Shown piece after piece: positions 16,887-57,866 of a stretch of DNA of 64,000 bases (its first letter is position 1; each line of letters starts with the position of its first letter). Below the pieces are notes generated by a model that saw nothing but the letters and a program-made list of their open reading frames with translations, searched no databases and was not told the origin of the DNA. The position numbers and the translations under genes are program-made. The stretch comes from Kyrpidia tusciae DSM 2912 (GTDB taxonomy: Bacteria > Bacillota > Bacilli > Kyrpidiales > Kyrpidiaceae), in the NCBI RefSeq assembly GCF_000092905.1, contig NC_014098.1, positions 496,001 through 560,000 of the forward strand. Direction: 5' to 3'.

Positions 16887-17364
16887 GGGAAGTCACCTGT
16901 GAATGAGTGAGTTCAGGGATCCAATTGTGGATCAATCTTCGGGACGGCATATCCATCAAAGACGGTCCACGTATCGGTTGTGACCCCGTTGCATCTTGTT
17001 TTCTTTGCCGGAGAGCCGCTTGGCGAACAGCCCGCATTTCGAGGCAGTTTTGTGGACTGATCCAGTGAACAGATGCCGGCACGGCGCCATGGCGGAAGTG
17101 GACCGGGCGGGGCCGGGTTTGGAACGATGGTGTCGGTGCGGGTGGATGGGTGGGGACTGTTTCATAAATGGATCGGCCATGGAGTTGAATCGGGTGGCGG
17201 TTCCGATGGGCTGATGTTTTTCTGGCCCACTTCGGAGTACCGCCACCCTTTTGTCACATAAATAGCCTGAAAGGGCTACGGGCAAATATTGCGTGATGCG
17301 TTACGGTGAAGGCAGGGGGAAGGCCGGGTCGGGCACGGCGGGGTTGCCGCACAGCAGGGAGGAG
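16887..17364. other. spacer without a convincing gene
   Basis: No frame in either direction has family motifs plus a ribosome site. A minus-strand frame of 109 codons (16956-17285) has basic, His-rich composition and could be a degraded gene, but I cannot name it. A short hairpin (TAGCC/GGCTA) is near 17265. Confidence 0.4.
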
Positions 17365-18717
17365 GTGTCGCTGATTGGTCAGGGAAGAGTTTCCATCCCG
17401 TGGCGGGCTTTGCTGGTGATGTTCGGGCTGTTGGTATGGAGCGTGCCGGTGTACGCCGAAGAGGGTTCCGACAGTCTTCAGGCCGTAATCGACCGGGCAC
17501 CGCCCGGATCCACGGTGAAGATCGCCCCGGGGACGTATGCCGGTCCCATCACCCTGGCAAAGCCCATCACCCTTTTTGGAGGTCCGGGGGTGCGAATCGT
17601 AAACGGGGGCGGGGGTTCGGAAGACCGGCCGCTGCTCTTGTTGCAAACAAGCGGAGCGAACGTCCAGGGGGTGCGGCTAGAAGACAAACTCAGTCTGCCG
17701 AAGCACGCCACTGTGGAGGTTCGCGGCGACAACAACGTATTGTCCGACCTGACGATAGCCACTGCCGGTATCGGGATCCGGCTTCAGGGTGCCGATGGCA
17801 ACAAGATCCGGGGGGTGCATATCCAGGGAACGGGGGTCGGGCGATCCGGCGGGACGGTGTTCACCGTCGGGAACGGCATTGAACTGTGGAATTCTAACGA
17901 CAACCGGGTGGAGAATTGTCGAATCGCCAAGGTTCAGGACGGGGTGTATCTCGATACCAGCCGCCGAAACCAGGTGCTCAATAATGTCGTTCAGGACTCT
18001 CACTACGCGGTACACCTCATGTTCACCGGTGAGAGTGACATCTCGGGCAATCGCTTCGCGCGAAACATCACCGGGGTCATGGTCATGGGGGACGACGGCA
18101 GCCGGGTCATCGGCAATCACATCGAGAAACAAGCCGCCAATGTACAGGCCCAAGGGATTCTGGTGTATGATTCCCACCACTGCCTGATTGCCGAGAACCA
18201 CGTCATCGGCAACCGCATCGGGTTCTATGTGGATCAGGCCAGCCAGAATCGTTTTGTCGACAATACGATTGCGCAAAATTTCTTGGGACTCTATATGACA
18301 GCGTCCCGTGACAACGATTTTAATCGCAACTTGTGGGTCGGGAATGTCGTTCAGGCCCAGGCGATCTCCAGTCGGGACAATCGCATGGCGGGTAATTACT
18401 GGGATGACCTGCAGGGACTCGATGCGGACGGAGATGGGCGGTCTGACCTTCCTTACCAGGCCTCTCCTTTCCTGTTAGCGCTCACCCGGGCCGTTCCCGC
18501 TTACCAGATCTTCTTCCAGGCACCGGGGACCTTCGTGTTGGAGCAGTTGTTTGCCGGTGATACCAGGCGCTGGCTCACGGACACGGCTCCCTTGATGAAG
18601 CCACCGGACACCGCAACCGCGTCGGCACCGCCGATGGACAAAACCGTTCCGCTTGTGTCGTTTTTCCTTCTCGGACTGGGACTTTATCCATTCTTACACC
18701 ATCGACCAGGGGTGTGA
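17365..18717 (+). CDS. nosD: NosD-like periplasmic beta-helix protein
   Basis: A roughly 450-residue exported protein with a right-handed beta-helix made of CASH/NosD repeats. Repeating NxV and GNRI units such as GNGIELWNSNDNRVENC, NQVLNNVV and GNRIGFYVDQASQNRF are visible through the middle. A signal peptide (basic start, then ALLVMFGLLVWSVPVYAEE) begins soon after the start, and a hydrophobic segment at the C-terminus (VSFFLLGLGLYPFL) probably anchors it. NosD acts with NosF and NosY in copper-site maturation of nitrous-oxide reductase. The start is uncertain: GTG 17365 overlaps the GGGAGGAGG ribosome site, and non-canonical starts shortly after it are possible. It forms an operon with nosL, nosY and nosF. 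Confidence 0.85.
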   Translation: MSLIGQGRVSIPWRALLVMFGLLVWSVPVYAEEGSDSLQAVIDRAPPGSTVKIAPGTYAGPITLAKPITLFGGPGVRIVNGGGGSEDRPLLLLQTSGANVQGVRLEDKLSLPKHATVEVRGDNNVLSDLTIATAGIGIRLQGADGNKIRGVHIQGTGVGRSGGTVFTVGNGIELWNSNDNRVENCRIAKVQDGVYLDTSRRNQVLNNVVQDSHYAVHLMFTGESDISGNRFARNITGVMVMGDDGSRVIGNHIEKQAANVQAQGILVYDSHHCLIAENHVIGNRIGFYVDQASQNRFVDNTIAQNFLGLYMTASRDNDFNRNLWVGNVVQAQAISSRDNRMAGNYWDDLQGLDADGDGRSDLPYQASPFLLALTRAVPAYQIFFQAPGTFVLEQLFAGDTRRWLTDTAPLMKPPDTATASAPPMDKTVPLVSFFLLGLGLYPFLHHRPGV

Positions 18718-18721
18718 AAGC

Positions 18722-19291
18722 ATGAAAATCAAACGGATGATCGGGATGCTGGCGGCGACCGCCGCCCTCAGTCTTGCTCTCGCGGGCTGCGGGAAACAAG
18801 CCGCCCAACCGGCGGCCATCGACCCCGCCGTGGACAAGTGTGCCGTTTGCCACATGACAGTCAAAGATGATCATTTTGCCACGGAGATCATTCTCGCCGA
18901 TGGCCAGGCGCTTAAATTTGACGACCTCGGCTGCATGAACAAGTGGACCCAGCAAAATGGCACTTCTCAGGTTGCCCAGCGATTTGTCCGGGATTACAAC
19001 AGCAGTCAATGGCTCAAATTCGAAGACGCCACTTATGTCTACGACCCGAATATCGTGACTCCCATGGCCTATAATGTCGTTTCCTTCCAGAATAAGGCCG
19101 ATGCGGAAAACTTCCTGAAACAGTACCCGGGGGGAAAGCTGTTTGCGGCGGATCAGTTGGGGAGCCATAACTGGGCCCGCAATATGGAAATGATGAAAAA
19201 AATGAAAGAACAGATGAACATGAACAGCGGCAGCATGAGCGGCGGCAGCATGAACGGAGGTAATATGAGCGGCGCGGAAATGGGGCACTGA
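18722..19291 (+). CDS. nosL: NosL copper chaperone lipoprotein with Met-rich tail
   Basis: A 189-residue lipoprotein: a basic start, a hydrophobic stretch, and lipobox LALAGC with the acylated Cys at 23. The NosL copper site CAVCHM is at residues 40-45, followed by FDDLGCM and a VRDYNSSQW stretch, then TPMAYNVVSF, all in normal order. NosL binds Cu(I) and delivers it to nitrous-oxide reductase. The C-terminal 40 residues are unusual: a Met/Asn/Gly/Ser-rich tail (repeats of SMSGGSMNGG type, ending MGH) that could bind further copper. It begins four bases after nosD. Confidence 0.9.
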   Translation: MKIKRMIGMLAATAALSLALAGCGKQAAQPAAIDPAVDKCAVCHMTVKDDHFATEIILADGQALKFDDLGCMNKWTQQNGTSQVAQRFVRDYNSSQWLKFEDATYVYDPNIVTPMAYNVVSFQNKADAENFLKQYPGGKLFAADQLGSHNWARNMEMMKKMKEQMNMNSGSMSGGSMNGGNMSGAEMGH

Positions 19292-42009: not shown

Positions 42010-42207
42010 TTAAGTGATGTCTCCGATTTCCTGAATGGCCTTCTCCCAAACAATGCTTTCATCGATCCCGAAATACTCATGAATAAGAATATTCTTTAGT
42101 CCAATCATCTTCTTCCATGGAATCTCCGGATATTTGCCGCGTATTTCATCGGAAACATTTTTTGACGCTTCACCAATCACTTCCAGATTACGAATAACCT
42201 GCTTTCC
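42010..42207 (-). pseudogene. HepT (HEPN) toxin, C-terminal fragment
   Basis: A 65-codon minus-strand frame without a start codon reads VIRNLEVIGEASKNVSDE, then IPWKKMIGLKNILIHEYFGID and ends at TAA (42010). This is the C-terminal half of a DUF86/HepT toxin; the usual catalytic motif R-x4-H-x-Y appears as KNILIHEY, with Lys for Arg. A stop codon in frame at 42208 and no homology upstream show that the N-terminal half is gone. No intact MntA-type antitoxin gene is seen next to it. Confidence 0.78.
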
Positions 42208-42672
42208 TTATTCAACATTATATCAAAACCGTCCTGTTCTTAAAGCTGAAATGCCCGCCTAGAATTTTTCGAAACCAAGTGCATGTATCGGACACAAGCC
42301 TCGCTTGCCCGAAAAAAAGAGGACACAGGGAAAGAATCGGGAATTTGCTTGCCGAGTCCGTCAATAACTTTTTTCTGGCCGTTGTCTCAAGTTCCAATAT
42401 CCTGAGCAGCAAGACAGCCGGCTCTGCCCGGGTGCCGCTATGCCCTTCAGACCATCGCGGCATTTCGCTCCCTGGATGAATTGTGGGAGGCATTCTCCCC
42501 CGCAGGAGGCTGTCTTCAGGCGGGACTTATGGAACTTTGCTCGATGACGTTGGAGAGGCCACGTTTCTCCACTTCCACTGCCGCGGGTTGTACGAGATGT
42601 GATACATTTACCCTTCGTGGGACGTCTTCCTCATGAAGTGCCCCCCATCGACGCACGGGAGGAGGTGGCAAG
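42208..42672. other. leader region upstream of the first ECF sigma gene
   Basis: No gene found. AT-rich on the left, GC-rich near 42480. The element AGATGTGATACA (42595-42606) sits 67 bases before the sigma-factor start. Confidence 0.5.
42595..42606 (+). promoter_or_regulatory. AGATGTGATACA element before ECF sigma gene 1
   Basis: The exact 12-base sequence recurs in the same orientation before the second ECF sigma gene (complement of 50641-50652). It may be part of a shared promoter or operator. Confidence 0.4.
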
Positions 42673-43233
42673 TTGGCTGACGAAATCCCCGCCGATTTTC
42701 AGGAGCTATTCCGGCTTCATTATCCCCGGGTGGTGCGCACCCTCCGCTCCCTGATCGCAGCCCCGGATGCGGTGGAGGATTTGGCCCAGGAGGTGTTCGT
42801 TCGCCTGTACCGGCATCCTCCGGATGATCCGTCCAAAGTGGCCCCGTGGCTGCACCGGACCTGCACCCGGATGGCCTACGATTATCTTCGGGCCGTGCAC
42901 CGGCACAGACGAACTTTGGAGCAGATGGAGCACGCCGAGGGAACGGAGGAGGCAACTCCCTCCAGCGAGCATGTGGTTCTTCAAGATTGGGAGCGAACCC
43001 GGGTGCAGGGGGTGTTGCGCCAGATGTCGGAGCGGGATCGCAAGGCCCTCTGGCTGCGCCATTCGGGTTACAGCTATCGGGAGATCGCGGATTATTTGCA
43101 GGTTCCGAAGGAGCAGGTGGGTACGCTGTTGATCCGTGCGGCCGCCCGTTTCAAAAAATTATACCAAGAAGGAGGTCCCGCCCGTGGAGAAGAATCGTCC
43201 GTGCGACCCATCCGCAGTTCAGGCATTGATTGA
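42673..43233 (+). CDS. ECF-type RNA polymerase sigma factor
   Basis: A 186-residue alternative sigma factor. Region 2 covers FRLHYPRVVRTLRSL and EDLAQEVFVRLYRHP; region 4 is RHSGYSYREIADYLQVPKEQVGTLLIRA with a clear helix-turn-helix. It directs RNA polymerase to stress or envelope genes when released from its anti-sigma factor. TTG 42673 follows GGGAGGAGG. The downstream gene begins inside its last 50 bases, so the sigma and anti-sigma factors are translated together. Confidence 0.92.
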   Translation: MADEIPADFQELFRLHYPRVVRTLRSLIAAPDAVEDLAQEVFVRLYRHPPDDPSKVAPWLHRTCTRMAYDYLRAVHRHRRTLEQMEHAEGTEEATPSSEHVVLQDWERTRVQGVLRQMSERDRKALWLRHSGYSYREIADYLQVPKEQVGTLLIRAAARFKKLYQEGGPARGEESSVRPIRSSGID

Positions 43234-52129: not shown

Positions 52130-52558
52130 TTAATGTTTGTCAGTCAGTCCCAATTGCTGCTTAATCGCGTATTGCAAGAGTTGAGAGAAGTTTAACCCGG
52201 CCGCCTCTCCGGCGTCCCGGAGCCACTTCGGCAATGTGCAGTTTTTCGTCACCGTCTTGTTGGCGTCCTCATCCCGGTACGGAGGCATGAAGACTTCGAT
52301 GAAGACGATGCGGTCACTCGGGTCCAGCAGGTCAATCCCGGTCGGGTCGGAGGGCTTCGGAACGTCCTTCCCTTGCTCTTCCAAATCCAGGAGAATGTCA
52401 ATGAGCATTTCTTTCGCCCGTTTGATTCCGTCGGTGATGTCGGCGGCAAGGATGGCTGTGCCGGGGAAATCGGGGAAGTACATGCCAATCCCGTCGTCAT
52501 CGGCCTTTTCGACAACCACCGGGTAGATATAATGAGCAGGATAACGCACCTGTAACAC
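52130..52558 (-). CDS. hicB: HicB family antitoxin
   Basis: A 142-residue antitoxin. The N-terminal half is the HicB fold (YPVVVEKADDDGIGMYFPDFPG followed by ITDGIKRAKEMLIDIL). The C-terminal part TLPKWLRDAGEAAGLNFSQLLQYAIKQQL is a ribbon-helix-helix-type DNA-binding region. It neutralises HicA and represses the operon. The start is a GTG after AAGGAGTG, 39 bases behind the hicA stop. Confidence 0.88.
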   Translation of the reverse strand: MLQVRYPAHYIYPVVVEKADDDGIGMYFPDFPGTAILAADITDGIKRAKEMLIDILLDLEEQGKDVPKPSDPTGIDLLDPSDRIVFIEVFMPPYRDEDANKTVTKNCTLPKWLRDAGEAAGLNFSQLLQYAIKQQLGLTDKH

Positions 52559-52597: not shown

Positions 52598-52777
52598 TTA
52601 GAATTTCATCCGTGCGGTCCGTTCAATGTTGCGCAGCGTACCCTTTGGAATCACTTGACCGCTGCTGTGGTAGCTGATGTCCGCGAACCTCGTCGGATCG
52701 TCCTTGCGGACATACCGCCGGTGGCTTCCGTGGCCCTTATGGTTTGGGTCGGGGATAAAGCCTTCTTGCTTGCCCAA
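52598..52777 (-). CDS. hicA: HicA family mRNA interferase toxin
   Basis: A 59-residue double-stranded-RNA-binding-fold toxin that would cut mRNA in the absence of HicB. The family pattern KGHGSHRRYVR (catalytic His in the G-S-H motif, about residues 14-24) is followed by SSGQVIPKGTLRNIER. The start is a TTG (52777) after GGAGG; a long frame before it lacks homology and would place the promoter inside the gene. The usual first helix of HicA is shortened, so the protein is slightly smaller than average. Confidence 0.85.
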   Translation of the reverse strand: MGKQEGFIPDPNHKGHGSHRRYVRKDDPTRFADISYHSSGQVIPKGTLRNIERTARMKF

Positions 52778-52801
52778 TGTTGCCTGCCTCCATTCAGTTT
52801 T

Positions 52802-52831
52802 ATCATAACGCGCATAAAATATGCGTGTCAA
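52802..52831 (-). promoter_or_regulatory. hicAB promoter with palindromic operator
   Basis: On the minus strand TTGACA (52831-52826) and TATGAT (52807-52802) are separated by 18 bases. Between them lies the palindrome CGCATA-AAA-TATGCG read on the plus strand (52811-52825), placed where HicB could bind and repress. Confidence 0.78.
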
Positions 52832-53281
52832 TGATTTTGCACGTAGGGGCCCGGGATTGCTTCCGGACCTCTTTTGTTTTGGTAGGGGAGCGGTCGGCGT
52901 GGGAAGTTGGTATCCCGCCCCAGACCATTCCGAAATACGGACAAGAGGGTGGCCAATCGTGAACTGCAGACAAGACACGATGGTTCGTCGCGGGTTGGCC
53001 TCGTACGGGATTCTTGCCGTGAACATTCGGTTTTCTGGGGAACCCTACCGGCCTATCGGCCAGCGGTGGCGGGTCTGGCCGGGATTCTGGAAGCAACGTC
53101 TAAGCCCTGATAGACTTCGGAACCCAGGGCAGCTTCCTGGCTATGTTCGCGGTTCTGTTCGGATTCGTCAAAGATCGGGCCGGGAGCCGGTTTCGTGATA
53201 AATACAACAAACTGTCACACGCGGTCTCCCATCCCCCCTTTACCCCACAATCCAGACGAATAAAATCGATGGTGAGAAATA
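52832..53281. other. spacer upstream of the cytochrome genes
   Basis: Several short open frames but none with motifs, start and ribosome site together. GC-rich to about 53170, then AT-rich. Confidence 0.45.
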
Positions 53282-53306
53282 TGTTATTTTATAACGATAA
53301 ATAACA
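53282..53306. promoter_or_regulatory. inverted repeat before the cytochrome operon
   Basis: TGTTATTT and AAATAACA are perfect 8-base arms with nine bases between, about 77 bases before the first gene. It is AT-rich and could be a repressor or activator site near the promoter. Confidence 0.55.
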
Positions 53307-53382: not shown

Positions 53383-54765
53383 TTGGAATTTCCTGTATTC
53401 ACCCTGGACCAGTTCGGATCGGGGAGCTTGATTGCCCTGGTGGCCATTGTTCACGTACTGATCAGCCACGGGGCGGCCGTCGGTGGGTCGATCATGGTGG
53501 TGGCCCTTGAAACCTACGCCATGAAACACAAGGACCTGGAGATGGACGATTTTGCCCACCGGTTGTTAAAGTACTTCTTCGTGGTGACCACCGCCGTGGG
53601 GGCCCTTACAGGAGTGGGCATCTGGCTGACCACGGGGGTGGTCCAGCCGGCGGCCATCGGATCGATGCTGCGTGTCTTTTTCTGGTTCTGGTTCACCGAA
53701 TGGATTGTGTTTGTCTCCGAAGTGGTCCTCGTCGTCCTGTACTATTTCACCTGGCCGAAACTCACCGGAGCGAAAAAGGTGCTCCACCGGAACATCGGTA
53801 TTGCCTACGCGGTATCCTCGTGGTTGACCATGACTTTGATCACCGGGATTCTGGCCTTCATGCTGACTCCCGGGGCGTGGCTGGCGGACGGTTCCCGCTG
53901 GGAAGCCTTTTTCAATCCCACCTACTTGCCCTCTCTGGCTTTCCGCACCTTCTTGGCTTTGGCGTTGGCCTCGGGATTCACGATGCTCTATACCCAGATC
54001 ACGGTCCGCAAACCGGAGCTTCGGGCCCGGGTTCTGGGGGTGGCTTCGCGAGTGCTCGCCGGGGCCGGGGTGATGATGTTTCTCACCGGGTACTGGTATT
54101 ACCAGTCGGTTCCCGGAGGGGCCCGGGCGCTCATTCAGTGGGCCACGGCCTTGTCGCCCCAGCAATTTGACCTAATCAATTACGGCGGGATCTTTGTCGC
54201 CTTCCTGTTTGCCATGGTGGCGATCTTTTACCCGATGCGCCTGGCGGCTTCGGGGAGGATCAACCGGGTGATCGGGGTGACGGCTTCGCTTTTGGTCATG
54301 GCTTTGGCGGTGTTTTATGTCGGGGAAATCGAAATGGTCCGGGAATCGATCCGCAAGCCTTACGTGATTTCCGGTTACATGTATGCCAACGGGATACGGG
54401 TGTCGGATGTGGAGCGGCTCAATACGGAAGGAATTCTGCCCAACGCTCGGTTTTCGCCGATCCAACAGGTGACACCGGGACAGGAAATTGAGGCCGGTCG
54501 AGAGATTTTTCGGCTGGAATGTCAGAGTTGCCACGTTTTGCACAATTTTGCCCGCCAGCGCCGGGATCTCGCCTTTCGGTTGCAGGGATGGAATGAGACG
54601 ACCATTTACAATTACGTAAAAAATCTGCATCAAGCCAGGGCCTTTATGCCTCCCTTTGTGGGGACGGATCAAGAGCTGCGGGCGCTCAGCAAGTTCCTCG
54701 CCACGGTACCGACCCAGGGAACCACGGCGACGGCCGGATCCCCCGCCGGTGGGATCCATGAGTAG
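53383..54765 (+). CDS. cytochrome bd-superfamily-like subunit I fused to a c-type haem domain
   Basis: A 460-residue membrane protein. Nine or so helices form a CydA-like core: VAIVHVLISHGAAVGGS near the N-terminus supplies a candidate haem histidine, and WFTEWIVFVSEVVLVVLYY carries a pair of glutamates placed as in the proton/haem channel of bd oxidases. The long quinol-binding Q-loop of true CydA is short or absent. The C-terminal part is a cytochrome c domain with CQSCH at residues 380-384 and a likely Met ligand in FMPPF near residue 425. This fits a bd-superfamily member that would accept electrons from a cytochrome c rather than directly from quinol. TTG start after GGAGGTGA. Confidence 0.72.
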   Translation: MEFPVFTLDQFGSGSLIALVAIVHVLISHGAAVGGSIMVVALETYAMKHKDLEMDDFAHRLLKYFFVVTTAVGALTGVGIWLTTGVVQPAAIGSMLRVFFWFWFTEWIVFVSEVVLVVLYYFTWPKLTGAKKVLHRNIGIAYAVSSWLTMTLITGILAFMLTPGAWLADGSRWEAFFNPTYLPSLAFRTFLALALASGFTMLYTQITVRKPELRARVLGVASRVLAGAGVMMFLTGYWYYQSVPGGARALIQWATALSPQQFDLINYGGIFVAFLFAMVAIFYPMRLAASGRINRVIGVTASLLVMALAVFYVGEIEMVRESIRKPYVISGYMYANGIRVSDVERLNTEGILPNARFSPIQQVTPGQEIEAGREIFRLECQSCHVLHNFARQRRDLAFRLQGWNETTIYNYVKNLHQARAFMPPFVGTDQELRALSKFLATVPTQGTTATAGSPAGGIHE

Positions 54766-54793
54766 CGCGGGCAGAGTTGAAAAGGAGTGAAAG

Positions 54794-55909
54794 ATGATGT
54801 CTCCCGTACCTCAGGATTTGCCGATCTCGATCCCGGGTTCCATTCCTTTTTTTACGGTCCTGCTCGTGGTGGGATTCGTGCTGCATATCGTGTTCGTGCT
54901 GCTGACGGTGTCCGGGGCCGTCATGTCGGTGGTCACGGAAGCGGTGGGTCACGCGAAAAAAGATGGCCGTTACCTCGAGTTGGCCCAGCGGGTTCTCACG
55001 GCGACGTCCGTGAACAAGAGTCTGGCGGTGGTGCTCGGCGTGGCGCCGCTTTTGCTCGTCGGGGTCTTGTACACCCGGTTTTTCTATCCGCCCACTGTGA
55101 TTCTCGGCGGCACCTGGCTGTCGGTGATCTGGCTTTTGATTCTCGGTTTTCTCTTGTTGTATGCCTATAAATTCTCCTGGGAGCGCCTTCAGGCCCGCCC
55201 GGGGGTGCACCTGCTGCTCGGGGTTCTCGGGACCATTCCCTTTTTGGTTGTGCCGATGATTTTTGTCGTCGTCATGGGGCTGATGCGCCGCCCGGATTTG
55301 TGGATGCAAACCCACAGTTTTGTCCAGGCGATGTTTTATCCCACGGTATGGCCCCGGTATCTGCATTTTATGGCGGCGACGGCGGTGTTCGGGGGCTTGT
55401 TGCCCATCTGGATCGCCTGGCGGCAAGAGCGGAAGGCGTCCCGGGAGAAAGGCGGAGTGACGTGGACTTCGCCCGAGGCGTCGGTGGCCGGATCGGAGAC
55501 GGCGGCCGCCGCGGAAGCCCAGACCGGAGGTGGCCTTGAAGGGGCGCTGGATTCGCGATGGGCAACCGGCTACGGGCTGCGGTGGACGGGGGTTGCTTTA
55601 CTCATTGAGGTGGTGCTCGGGCTGGTGGTTTTATTCACCATGCCGGCGTCGGTGCGGGGTCATTTTTTGGGAGGGTCGGCCTTCTCGACCTTGGGGTTTG
55701 CGGTGGGCGCGGTGGCGGTGGCCGCTGCCCTGGGCGTGGTGTACGTGGCTCGCCGGCATCTTGACCCCGGGCGGGTGTTGCGAAATCTCGGCATCGCCCT
55801 TTTTGTGGTGGTGCTCGCCATGGCCACGGTTCGGCTCCAGATTCGGGATGTGGAGATTGCGCCCTATACGGCGGCCTCGGAGCCTTCGGGTCAAACCGCA
55901 GGTCCCTAA
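54794..55909 (+). CDS. membrane partner of the bd-like cytochrome
   Basis: A 371-residue protein with about eight or nine membrane helices. It starts IPFFTVLLVVGFVLHIVFVLLTVSGA; the first helix with a His resembles the first helix of CydA-like and related subunits. A second half begins after a charged, Ala/Glu/Gly-rich linker (about residues 220-252). No Cys-x2-Cys-His motif is present. The gap to the previous gene is 28 bases and AAAGGAGTG precedes the ATG, so the two form an operon and presumably one complex. Whether it binds haem is open. Confidence 0.65.
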   Translation: MMSPVPQDLPISIPGSIPFFTVLLVVGFVLHIVFVLLTVSGAVMSVVTEAVGHAKKDGRYLELAQRVLTATSVNKSLAVVLGVAPLLLVGVLYTRFFYPPTVILGGTWLSVIWLLILGFLLLYAYKFSWERLQARPGVHLLLGVLGTIPFLVVPMIFVVVMGLMRRPDLWMQTHSFVQAMFYPTVWPRYLHFMAATAVFGGLLPIWIAWRQERKASREKGGVTWTSPEASVAGSETAAAAEAQTGGGLEGALDSRWATGYGLRWTGVALLIEVVLGLVVLFTMPASVRGHFLGGSAFSTLGFAVGAVAVAAALGVVYVARRHLDPGRVLRNLGIALFVVVLAMATVRLQIRDVEIAPYTAASEPSGQTAGP

Positions 55910-55931: not shown

Positions 55932-55973
55932 TTGTCCGGTGGTGTGATTTTGTGCTATACTTCACACAAAATC
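55932..55973 (+). promoter_or_regulatory. promoter with perfect palindrome before the DeoR-NosL regulator gene
   Basis: TTGTCC (55932-55937) and TATACT (55956-55961) are spaced 18 bases. GATTTTGTG (55946-55954) and CACAAAATC (55965-55973) form perfect 9-base arms, and the -10 box lies in the 10-base spacer between them. A protein bound there would block RNA polymerase, so autorepression is likely. Confidence 0.75.
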
Positions 55974-55996
55974 GCCTCAAGGGAGAGGAACGCCGG

Positions 55997-56599
55997 GTGC
56001 TGCCTGCGGAGCGTCAGAAAAAGATTCTGAGTTGGTTGCAACAGGAAGGGCATTTGAAGATCTCGGATCTGAGCCGTCGCCTTCAGGTGTCGGAGATGAC
56101 GGTGCACCGGGATGTTCGGGTGTTGGCGGATCAAGGGCGGGTGGTGAAGACCTACGGAGGGATCTCCTTGGCGAGCCCCCCGGCCGAGGTGCCGGGACGG
56201 GGCAATGACACTTGCGCCTATTGCCGCCGGCCGGTGGACGATCGCTTGTCGATGACGGCCAACCTCGCCGATGGAATTGTGGAAACGTACTGCTGTCCAC
56301 ACTGTGCACTATTGGCTTGTGCCCACCGCCCCTCCCAGCCGCGCAACTTGCTGGGCCGGGATTTTTTGCTCGGCCACACGGTGGGTGCGGCGGCGGGATG
56401 GTATGTGATGGGGGCGGACATGCCGACACTGTGTTGCGAGCCCCAAGTCCTGCTTTTCGGGGAACGGCGGGACGCCGAGCGGTTTGCGCGGGGATTCGGG
56501 GGTGAGATTTTTGATTTTGACGAGGCGACCCGGGAGATTCAGCTGAGGATGAATCGCCCGAATACCGCCAGTTGTCATCAGGAGGCGGGCCGGAAATAG
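55997..56599 (+). CDS. DeoR-type HTH regulator fused to a NosL-like metal-binding domain
   Basis: A 200-residue protein. Residues 1-57 are a DeoR helix-turn-helix (RQKKILSWLQQEGHLKISDL, VSEMTVHRDVRVLADQG). The C-terminal 130 residues follow the NosL pattern: CAYC (73-76), DDRLSMTANLADGIVETYCCPHC (81-103), HTVGAAAGWYVMGADMP (127-143), CC (146-147) and GERRDAERFARGFGGEIFDFDEA. Conserved Cys/Met/His could bind Cu(I) or another soft metal. Instead of a sugar-phosphate domain it has this metal module, so it is probably a metal-sensing repressor. GTG 55997 has GGGAGAGG upstream. It lies between the bd-like cytochrome genes and the FixH-like lipoprotein gene. Confidence 0.8.
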   Translation: MLPAERQKKILSWLQQEGHLKISDLSRRLQVSEMTVHRDVRVLADQGRVVKTYGGISLASPPAEVPGRGNDTCAYCRRPVDDRLSMTANLADGIVETYCCPHCALLACAHRPSQPRNLLGRDFLLGHTVGAAAGWYVMGADMPTLCCEPQVLLFGERRDAERFARGFGGEIFDFDEATREIQLRMNRPNTASCHQEAGRK

Positions 56600-56715
56600 T
56601 CGGCCTGCCTTTGGCGTTGTTCATACAGTTGCCACAAGTGTAGCTCGAATGGGCCAGTGATTGGAGGCTCGCGCTGTTGTATGATACCCGGGGTCAAGAT
56701 GAAAGGAAGAGGTGC

Positions 56716-57186
56716 ATGAGCATGCAACGTCGCTGGGTTTGGACGGGGGTGTCCCTTTCCGTTGCCGCCGGACTGCTGGCGGGCTGCGGCCAGACCGCCG
56801 CTCCGTCCCACACCGACCAGTCCCAGGGGAACCCGGGGACATCCGCTTCATCCACAGACATGACTATGGATTCGGGCATGAACATGGATCAACAGTTTGA
56901 CATCGCATTCTCCACAGATCCCCCCGGTCCCGTAAAGGCCAATCAGCCCGTGAAGCTGATTGAAAAGGTGAGCAAGAAGGGCACTCCCATCAGTGGAGCT
57001 TACATTAAATTAGAGATCTGGAAAGATGGGGACTCCAAGCACGAGATGGTGGATGTGGTGGAAGGTCCCAGCGGCACCTACACGGTGGAAAAAACCTTTG
57101 ACAAGCCCGGACTCTACCATGTCACCCTCCACACCACAGCCCTGGGATTCCACGAAATGCCGACCAAAAACATTGAAGTCCAGTAG
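56716..57186 (+). CDS. FixH/YtkA-like lipoprotein
   Basis: A 156-residue lipoprotein with a basic start and lipobox AGLLAGC (Cys near 22). Met-rich segments (TDMTMDSGMNMDQQ) follow, then a YtkA/FixH-type immunoglobulin-like domain: VKANQPVKLIEKVSKKGTPI, YIKLEIWKDGDSKHEMVDV, GTYTVEKTFDKPGLYHVTLH. Such proteins help copper delivery or assembly of haem-copper oxidases. The Met and His residues suggest a copper site. It lies in the cytochrome module downstream of the metal-sensing regulator. Confidence 0.75.
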   Translation: MSMQRRWVWTGVSLSVAAGLLAGCGQTAAPSHTDQSQGNPGTSASSTDMTMDSGMNMDQQFDIAFSTDPPGPVKANQPVKLIEKVSKKGTPISGAYIKLEIWKDGDSKHEMVDVVEGPSGTYTVEKTFDKPGLYHVTLHTTALGFHEMPTKNIEVQ

Positions 57187-57404
57187 CCCGCTCAGCAGCT
57201 TAGGGGAAGGACCACCAGATCCAGAGGAGCAGGGCGACGCAAAGTGGCGGCGGTCTGTTGGGAGCCGCCGGGCCATGGGGATTCGCCGGACACCGGTGGC
57301 CATTTGTGAAGAAATTCTGACAGGGGCATGTAAGGCGCTTGACCCCGCTGGGGTTTCCGGCCAGAATGAAGGTGACATGTCGAAGACGAAAGCGTGGGAG
57401 AAGA

Positions 57405-57866
57405 TTGACTGCAGAAAGCGTCGCCTATCTAAACGAAGCTTTCATGCTGGCCAGCGCCGGTTCGGCGGCCGTTGGGTGGTATTTGATTCGGCGAGGGCGC
57501 CGGGAGGCCCACCGAAGGGCCATGTTAACGAGCGTCTTGCTGGGTGCGGCATTTTTTCTGAGTTATGTGCTAAAGACAATACTCATCGGGGATACCAGCT
57601 TCGGAGGGCCTGCACAGTGGCGGGAGCCGTATCAAATTTTTCTCCAGGCCCACTCCGTTCTCGCGACGGTGGCCGCGGTGCTTGGGATCGTGACGTTGCG
57701 CTACGCCTTCAAAAGCCGATTTGCTTCCCATAAACGGATCGGCCCTTGGACGGTCACGATCTGGCTGATCACGGCGGCCACCGGCCTGATGGTCTTCTTA
57801 TTGTTGTATGTGATATACGAGCCGGGTCCCACGAGAAACATGTTTCGGACTTGGCTCGGATTCTAG
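57405..57866 (+). CDS. DUF420 membrane protein (CtaM-like)
   Basis: A 153-residue protein with four predicted membrane helices and conserved histidines of the DUF420 family: REAHRRAMLTSVLLGAAFFLSYVLK and ILQAH region FLQAHSVLATVA, then SHKRIGPWTVTIWLITAATGLMVFLLLY. The B. subtilis relative CtaM is needed for maturation of cytochrome caa3/aa3 oxidase. Start uncertain: TTG 57405 has GGGAG four bases upstream; an in-frame ATG at 57366 has no good site. It fits the respiratory context. Confidence 0.78.
   Translation: MTAESVAYLNEAFMLASAGSAAVGWYLIRRGRREAHRRAMLTSVLLGAAFFLSYVLKTILIGDTSFGGPAQWREPYQIFLQAHSVLATVAAVLGIVTLRYAFKSRFASHKRIGPWTVTIWLITAATGLMVFLLLYVIYEPGPTRNMFRTWLGF

Follow-up and report, generated by a model that had tools for sequence, protein, structure and literature searches.

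A YcnK-type DeoR-NosL regulator with predicted operators at its own promoter and at a bd-like oxygen reductase operon in Kyrpidia tusciae

Analysis of a 64,000-nucleotide stretch of the Kyrpidia tusciae DSM 2912 chromosome, which will be referred to as the window, identified a DeoR-NosL fusion protein that by sequence comparison is orthologous to YcnK, which in Bacillus represses ycnKJI in a copper-dependent manner, together with three predicted operators, one at its own promoter and two at the adjacent operon for a bd-like O2 reductase. We consider it likely that this protein acts as a YcnK-type copper repressor which, when loaded with copper, binds the three operators, and that copper scarcity frees a heme-only oxidase along with copper-delivery genes. 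The domain fusion, its fold, the orthology, the operator motif, the location of its three sites in the genome and the conservation of these sites across three genomes were computed here. We infer that copper bound to the Cys/His cluster would enable YcnK to bind TGTKA-N5-TGTTR-N5-T(A/C)ACA operators, of which the chromosome carries three. The operator lying over the ycnK -10 box would result in autorepression, and the pair at the adjacent OR-N/CydAA'-type operon in repression of the oxidase. When copper becomes scarce, YcnK would be released, and the putatively active heme-only oxidase as well as the copper-delivery proteins would be produced, the YtkA and DUF420 genes probably being transcribed in one unit with ycnK. 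The sign of regulation assumed for K. tusciae is that of B. subtilis YcnK, by analogy. With somewhat less confidence, we favour the view that YcnK has been retargeted in Kyrpidia from copper import to the bd-like O2 reductase, which would constitute a one-protein copper-sparing respiratory switch. To our knowledge, based on a limited literature search, no repressor has been described that senses copper and directly binds a bd-type oxidase promoter; a copper-sensing repressor acting directly on a bd-type operon would, if true, be the novel element, and the locus would represent a three-operator regulon by which copper limitation is connected with a bd-like enzyme that is still poorly characterised. 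The features of the locus are summarized in Table 1.

Table 1. Features of the ycnK locus (positions refer to the window)
Feature	Positions	Strand	Basis and remarks
Predicted operator bd1, TGTGACAGTTTGTTGTATTTATCACG	53194-53219	-	Promoter of the bd-like operon; top match of the window; counterpart in EA-1 and Bu37
Predicted operator bd2, TGTTATTTATCGTTATAAAATAACA	53282-53306	-	87 bp from bd1; motif and genome-wide pattern
Putative bd-like O2 reductase subunit, CydA-related, with C-terminal c-type cytochrome (CQSCH), OR-N-like	53383-54765	+	5doq_A, Cytochrome_CBB3
Second CydA-related subunit (CydA'-like)	54794-55909	+	PF01654, 34.9 bits; 5doq_A alignment
Predicted ycnK promoter, TTGTCC-18-TATACT, TGC ahead of -10	55932-55961	+	Consensus scan; TATACT at 55956-55961
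Predicted ycnK operator, TGTGA-TTTTG-TGCTA-TACT-TCACA	55943-55966	+	Overlaps -10; conserved in EA-1 and Bu37
9+9 palindrome of the first-pass annotation	55946-55973		Exact; not conserved as a palindrome
YcnK-type DeoR-NosL regulator (predicted)	55997-56599	+	GTG start, 200 aa
HTH_DeoR domain	56012-56173	+	Residues 6-59, Pfam
NosL-fold cysteine-rich lobe (model)	56213-56545	+	Residues 73-183; C73, C76, C99, C100, H102, C103, C146, C147
YtkA-domain lipoprotein (CtaK/YtkA-like)	56677-57186	+	PF13115, 43.2 bits; start more likely at ATG 56716
DUF420 membrane protein (CtaM-like)	57339-57866	+	PF04238, 123.3 bits; start uncertain

The first-pass annotation of this DNA had proposed a DeoR-type DNA-binding domain fused to a NosL-like metal module, and profile searches and structure prediction clearly confirmed this arrangement. 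HTH_DeoR was matched with 55.8 bits (Pfam cut-off 21) and NosL, at residues 127-180, with 24.9 bits, just over the cut-off of 24 and with the C-terminal half of the profile only. This low score is backed by the fold of the model and by the matches of the homologs. An AlphaFold model obtained with 64 homologs showed a mean pLDDT of 89.4, its best PDB match in Foldseek was NosL (7og7; E 4.1e-6, TM 0.70 on the target) with MerB structures ranking after the NosL structures, and Pfam NosL was matched in 60/64 homologs. Judged by the model, the C-terminal lobe thus has the fold of the NosL chaperone encoded in nos clusters; unlike that chaperone, it is fused to a helix-turn-helix and carries another cysteine set, and a separate nosL gene is present in the window. 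DeoR-family NCBIfam models covered just the first ~69 residues and a classical DeoR/GlpR C-terminal sugar-phosphate sensor domain was not found with these models, indicating that the sensor usual in DeoR proteins is absent from YcnK. The span originally given for the fusion (55932-56599) contains the gene, whose GTG start is preceded by AGGGAGAGG, but also takes in the promoter from the -35 hexamer onwards. The three motifs pointed out at that time, CxxC (CAYC, residues 73-76), CCPHC (99-103) and MGADMP (138-143), are all present; MGADMP, however, was not conserved among the YcnK homologs aligned. A CCxPQ motif not mentioned in the earlier annotation occurs as well, and the eight candidate ligands of the lobe were kept without exception in both ortholog alignments.

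K. tusciae YcnK shares 37-45% identity with its orthologs (43% with that of B. spizizenii). As is usual for the family, whose members measure about 190-200 aa, a single protein combines HTH_DeoR with a NosL-fold domain behind it, and the similarity to Bacillus YcnK extends over the full length and includes the common set of eight invariant Cys/His residues. The suggestion that the fusion might be undescribed could thus not be upheld, since it corresponds to YcnK, which is known in B. subtilis according to passages of PMC8424229, PMC12154828, PMC13344008 and PMC10991351, and is widespread in Bacilli, with ycnK homologs in 36 of 400 sampled genomes. A single-protein query against genome contigs yielded no YcnK match; an alignment-based search then gave 80 kept loci of named genomes, chiefly from Bacillaceae and their relatives. 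The survey of neighbouring genes that had been proposed for the fusion showed that ycnK is often adjoined by ycnJ/ycnI, ytkA, sco or PepSY-TM genes. In Bacillus genomes, ycnK is followed by genes encoding a CopC-CopD-YtkA protein (YcnJ) and a DUF1775 protein (YcnI). Outside Bacillus, YtkA, SCO1/SenC or PepSY-TM genes were frequently found, in some genomes also CtaG, all of which represent copper or heme-copper oxidase functions (for PepSY-TM proteins see PMC13038864); among the genomes compared, roughly one in three has a YtkA gene next to ycnK. Beside K. tusciae ycnK neither ycnJ nor ycnI was detected. As both are also missing beside many other orthologs, their adjacency appears typical of the Bacillus operon and not of the protein family. 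Orthologs of one family (f25; loci L064, L065 and L069, genomes G087, G073 and G045) were found without YcnJ or YtkA neighbours, and the gene clusters c19 and c35 near these loci were shared, possibly reflecting another regulon. A nearly full-length DeoR-NosL homolog with 38% identity was also observed on two plasmids of the Gram-negative Stenotrophomonas rhizophila (CP031730.1 and CP065518.1), which suggests horizontal spread.

The family operator was derived by an EM motif search in the upstream regions (at most 150 nt) of a non-redundant set of 61 ycnK genes, all from outside the Kyrpidia family. The resulting motif, TGTGAAaAaaTGTTgAA, consists of two half-sites 10 bp apart and reached a log-likelihood of 434 compared to 132 for shuffled input. 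Enrichment was also seen for an inverted half-site, T(A/C)ACA, which as the third one closes a 25-bp unit and was present in 28/56 aligned ycnK sites; as control offsets gave counts of 0-19, this number alone provides moderate support. The family consensus reads TGTKA-N5-TGTTR-N5-TAACA, the broader form ending in T(A/C)ACA, and it can be used to map YcnK regulons across Bacilli. Promoters of ycnK in the B. subtilis group carry an extra direct TGATA half-site. The YcnK site was reportedly given as a direct repeat by Hirooka in 2012. As a measure of background, 20 matches of at least 13 bits were obtained in 1.28 Mb of other Bacilli DNA.

Applied to the window (128,000 positions), the 25-bp motif placed bd1 (19.7), the ycnK operator (14.3) and bd2 (12.9) at the top, the next match scoring 8.6; the match at bd1 spans 53196-53219. 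With the held-out motif the ycnK promoter scored 10.2 bits. The 21-bp motif ranked the site at 53199-53219 first, the ycnK promoter third and the site at 53286-53306 fourth, and both oxidase sites possess the third half-site although it lies outside the 21-bp model. Rank 2 was taken by a match of 10.3 bits at 42207-42227 (minus strand), which precedes the gene for an ECF-type sigma factor (42673-43233), has no third half-site and probably represents chance. Dinucleotide shuffles of the same promoters attained the motif maxima in at most 0.1% of trials. In Bu37, a metagenome-assembled genome of the sister genus, the four best 21-bp matches of 19.5 kb fell into the same two promoters, those of ycnK and of the oxidase, and the spacing between bd1 and bd2 was kept across K. 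tusciae, Kyrpidia sp. EA-1 and Bu37. Comparing the oxidase and ycnK promoters of K. tusciae and Bu37, positions within sites were more conserved than their flanks (34/45 versus 79/174, p 4e-4), and a second comparison gave 20/24 versus 33/70 (p 0.002). The genome-wide pattern TGTKANNNNNYGNTRN{4,6}TMACR matched the K. tusciae genome (one contig, 3,384,766 bp) exactly three times, namely at bd1, bd2 and the ycnK operator. In EA-1 it matched the same three places, in Bu37 it matched four times, three of them at these places, and in reversed controls no match was obtained. Since the pattern was drawn so as to accept the family's own sites, these counts speak for specificity and not for discovery. 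A further genome of the genus (G002), which is only 86% complete, showed no match to the pattern and yielded no ycnK and no bd-like gene. The bd2 site is in addition an 8+8 dyad over TATAAC, the sixth pair of which is T-A in K. tusciae and G-C in Bu37, so that complementarity is kept.

It might be argued that YcnK is an ordinary member of its family in K. tusciae, controlling itself and copper-handling genes only, and that the oxidase matches belong to another regulator with a similar AT-rich site, the adjacency being due to chance. The motif does have look-alikes, since OR-N promoters of two genomes without YcnK scored 12-17 (G038, 16.9; G023, 11.9), and the copper-delivery genes YtkA and DUF420 lie directly 3' of ycnK. 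However, in all three genomes two full sites lie 87 bp apart, the third half-site is present although the 21-bp model does not include it, the sites form conserved islands and the K. tusciae genome contains no site beyond the three, all of which argues against this explanation. Moreover, no YcnK site above 7 bits (21-bp motif) was found at the CopD and heme-copper oxidase loci of K. tusciae, and in EA-1 no match for CopD itself was obtained. Overall, we regard autoregulation with copper-handling targets alone as unlikely, though as the most serious alternative to direct control of the oxidase operon by YcnK. That the fusion responds to copper and regulates genes for a terminal oxidase, as first suggested, is hence supported by conserved operators, but by a motif other than the palindrome originally put forward.

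Data from other genomes limit the proposed YcnK-oxidase connection to the Kyrpidia lineage. The idea that sites at OR-N promoters strictly accompany the presence of YcnK was rejected, given the matches in G038 and G023 and the lack of the motif at the distant OR-N genes of the YcnK-bearing genomes G073 and G087. Sites were mostly missing from the canonical cydA promoters of Bacilli that carry YcnK, apart from a few matches of 12-18, and control of canonical cydA by YcnK in other Bacilli was likewise discarded. The best lead outside the Kyrpidia family is G347, where YcnK is present and an OR-N gene lies unlinked to ycnK, at a distance of 1.8 Mb. The region upstream of this OR-N gene (L170) reads TGATA-GGTTT-TGATA-CAATA-TGATT-TAATT-TGTTA-CATAC-TAACA, in which four tandem 10-bp repeats (TGATA/TGATA/TGATT/TGTTA) are followed by TAACA, and the same wiring may exist in this genome. 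In two congeneric genomes without YcnK (G038 and G139; loci L166 and L171), the element TGTGAAGAAATGGxGA is conserved before the OR-N gene, possibly as the site of another regulator.

Both proteins of the operon at 53383-55909 aligned with subunit I of the Geobacillus bd oxidase (5doq_A). The first keeps both glutamates of FMETFAFFFE, whereas the second lacks them. Enzymes of the OR-N/CydAA' branch possess two CydA-related subunits and have been described as O2 reductases that putatively oxidise cytochrome c (PMC10839748). The K. tusciae operon resembles them in encoding two such subunits together, with the glutamates in one and missing from the other, and is most simply described as OR-N/CydAA'-like. 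It differs in the cytochrome c fused to its first subunit, and the likeness is one of subunit make-up. When copper is short, bacteria fall back on copper-free bd oxidases. Copper is absent from bd-type oxidases according to a passage of PMC8951039, and their importance under copper limitation has been reported for B. subtilis (in a passage of PMC13344008) and for M. tuberculosis (PMC12140626). The K. tusciae genome encodes five COX1-family proteins, possibly including a nitric oxide reductase, so heme-copper enzymes to switch from are present. The restriction of the predicted operators to ycnK and the oxidase genes suggests that Kyrpidia and its nearest relative swap their respiratory enzyme as copper runs short. 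The YtkA and DUF420 genes belong to families whose B. subtilis members CtaK and CtaM have been associated with supplying heme-copper oxidases with copper (a passage of PMC13344008). The motif scan of the window detected no operator ahead of these two genes; they would consequently be controlled by read-through from ycnK.

Regarding the signal, K. tusciae YcnK is probably a copper-responsive autoregulator. B. subtilis YcnK is described as a copper-dependent repressor, its operon being upregulated in copper starvation and downregulated with copper (PMC12154828, PMC8424229, PMC10991351). Nevertheless, one passage of PMC13344008 states that copper antagonises YcnK, and on this account the sign of regulation assumed here is tentative. 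There is a slim chance that zinc, mercury or thiol oxidation, and not copper, is what the lobe detects, and that the switch responds to redox state or another metal. NosL and MerB share a common fold that originated in duplicated TRASH-like treble-clef fingers (PMC4999995), MerB structures were the next Foldseek matches, and the seven invariant cysteines could be redox-active. On the other hand, the same ligand set is found in orthologs of the B. subtilis group, in which copper is the signal that YcnK responds to (PMC10991351, PMC12154828), and ycnK neighbours across Bacilli are genes for copper functions and heme-copper oxidase assembly, in line with copper as the signal.

A palindrome around the -10 box had been taken as the autorepression site, and an exact GATTTTGTG-N10-CACAAAATC repeat enclosing TATACT was indeed verified; its DNA is capable of hairpin folding (z -4.1). 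Arms of this length are in themselves no great rarity, as the 64 kb contain eight distinct places with perfect inverted repeats of 9+9 (loops of 3-20). The expected conservation in relatives was not borne out: 8/9 arm positions pair in EA-1, where one position is changed, and 6/9 in Bu37, as read off the alignment, so the palindrome is real but is not a conserved element. The exact palindrome is present in a single copy in the whole K. tusciae genome, no copy was found at the bd-like oxidase operon, and other copies with up to three mismatches resemble chance, for which reasons the palindrome was dismissed as a regulon marker. By comparison of the three genomes, the conserved element is the predicted three-half-site operator, which overlaps the palindrome but is differently centred. 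An even slimmer chance is left to the palindrome being an operator of NADH-sensing Rex or of another dyad-binding regulator that would place ycnK under redox control, because, although the genome encodes a Rex-type protein and TTGTGCTATACTTCACAC at 55950-55967 fits, by eye, 11/14 fixed positions of a Rex-type consensus (TTGTGAAnnnnTTCACAA), the sister genus reads TTATGTTATAATTCACGT, where this match is gone and the conserved bases follow the YcnK-family motif instead.

Compared to B. subtilis YcnK, the K. tusciae system shows the same two-domain protein, the invariant Cys/His set, an autoregulatory position and an upstream operator of the same family. It differs in that ycnK is not adjoined by ycnJ/ycnI, in that the unit of ycnK itself and the bd-like operon are the predicted targets, and in that the operator ends in an inverted half-site, whereas the B. 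subtilis group has three direct repeats. Archaeal HTH-TRASH metal regulators likewise follow a plan of winged helix plus metal module. With these regulators and MerB, YcnK shares the overall plan of a winged helix joined to a treble-clef-derived metal module (PMC4999995); the HTH families are different, however, and MerB is an enzyme, so the likeness is one of plan.

The neighbourhood had been described as a bd-like operon and copper-linked proteins with a distant true nosL, which our annotation corroborated. NosD (17293-18717) and the true NosL (18653-19291, 59.5 bits), both on the plus strand, are part of a cluster for nitrous oxide reductase, another copper-dependent respiratory enzyme of K. 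tusciae. Divergent from the bd-like operon, a HicB-like antitoxin (52130-52558) and a HicA-like ORF (52598-53026; 26.1 bits, just below the Pfam cut-off) are encoded on the minus strand, and EA-1 carries different genes at this position. In Bu37, an extra CydA'-like protein is encoded just 3' of ycnK (L035:10311-11312), besides the copy between the first subunit and ycnK.
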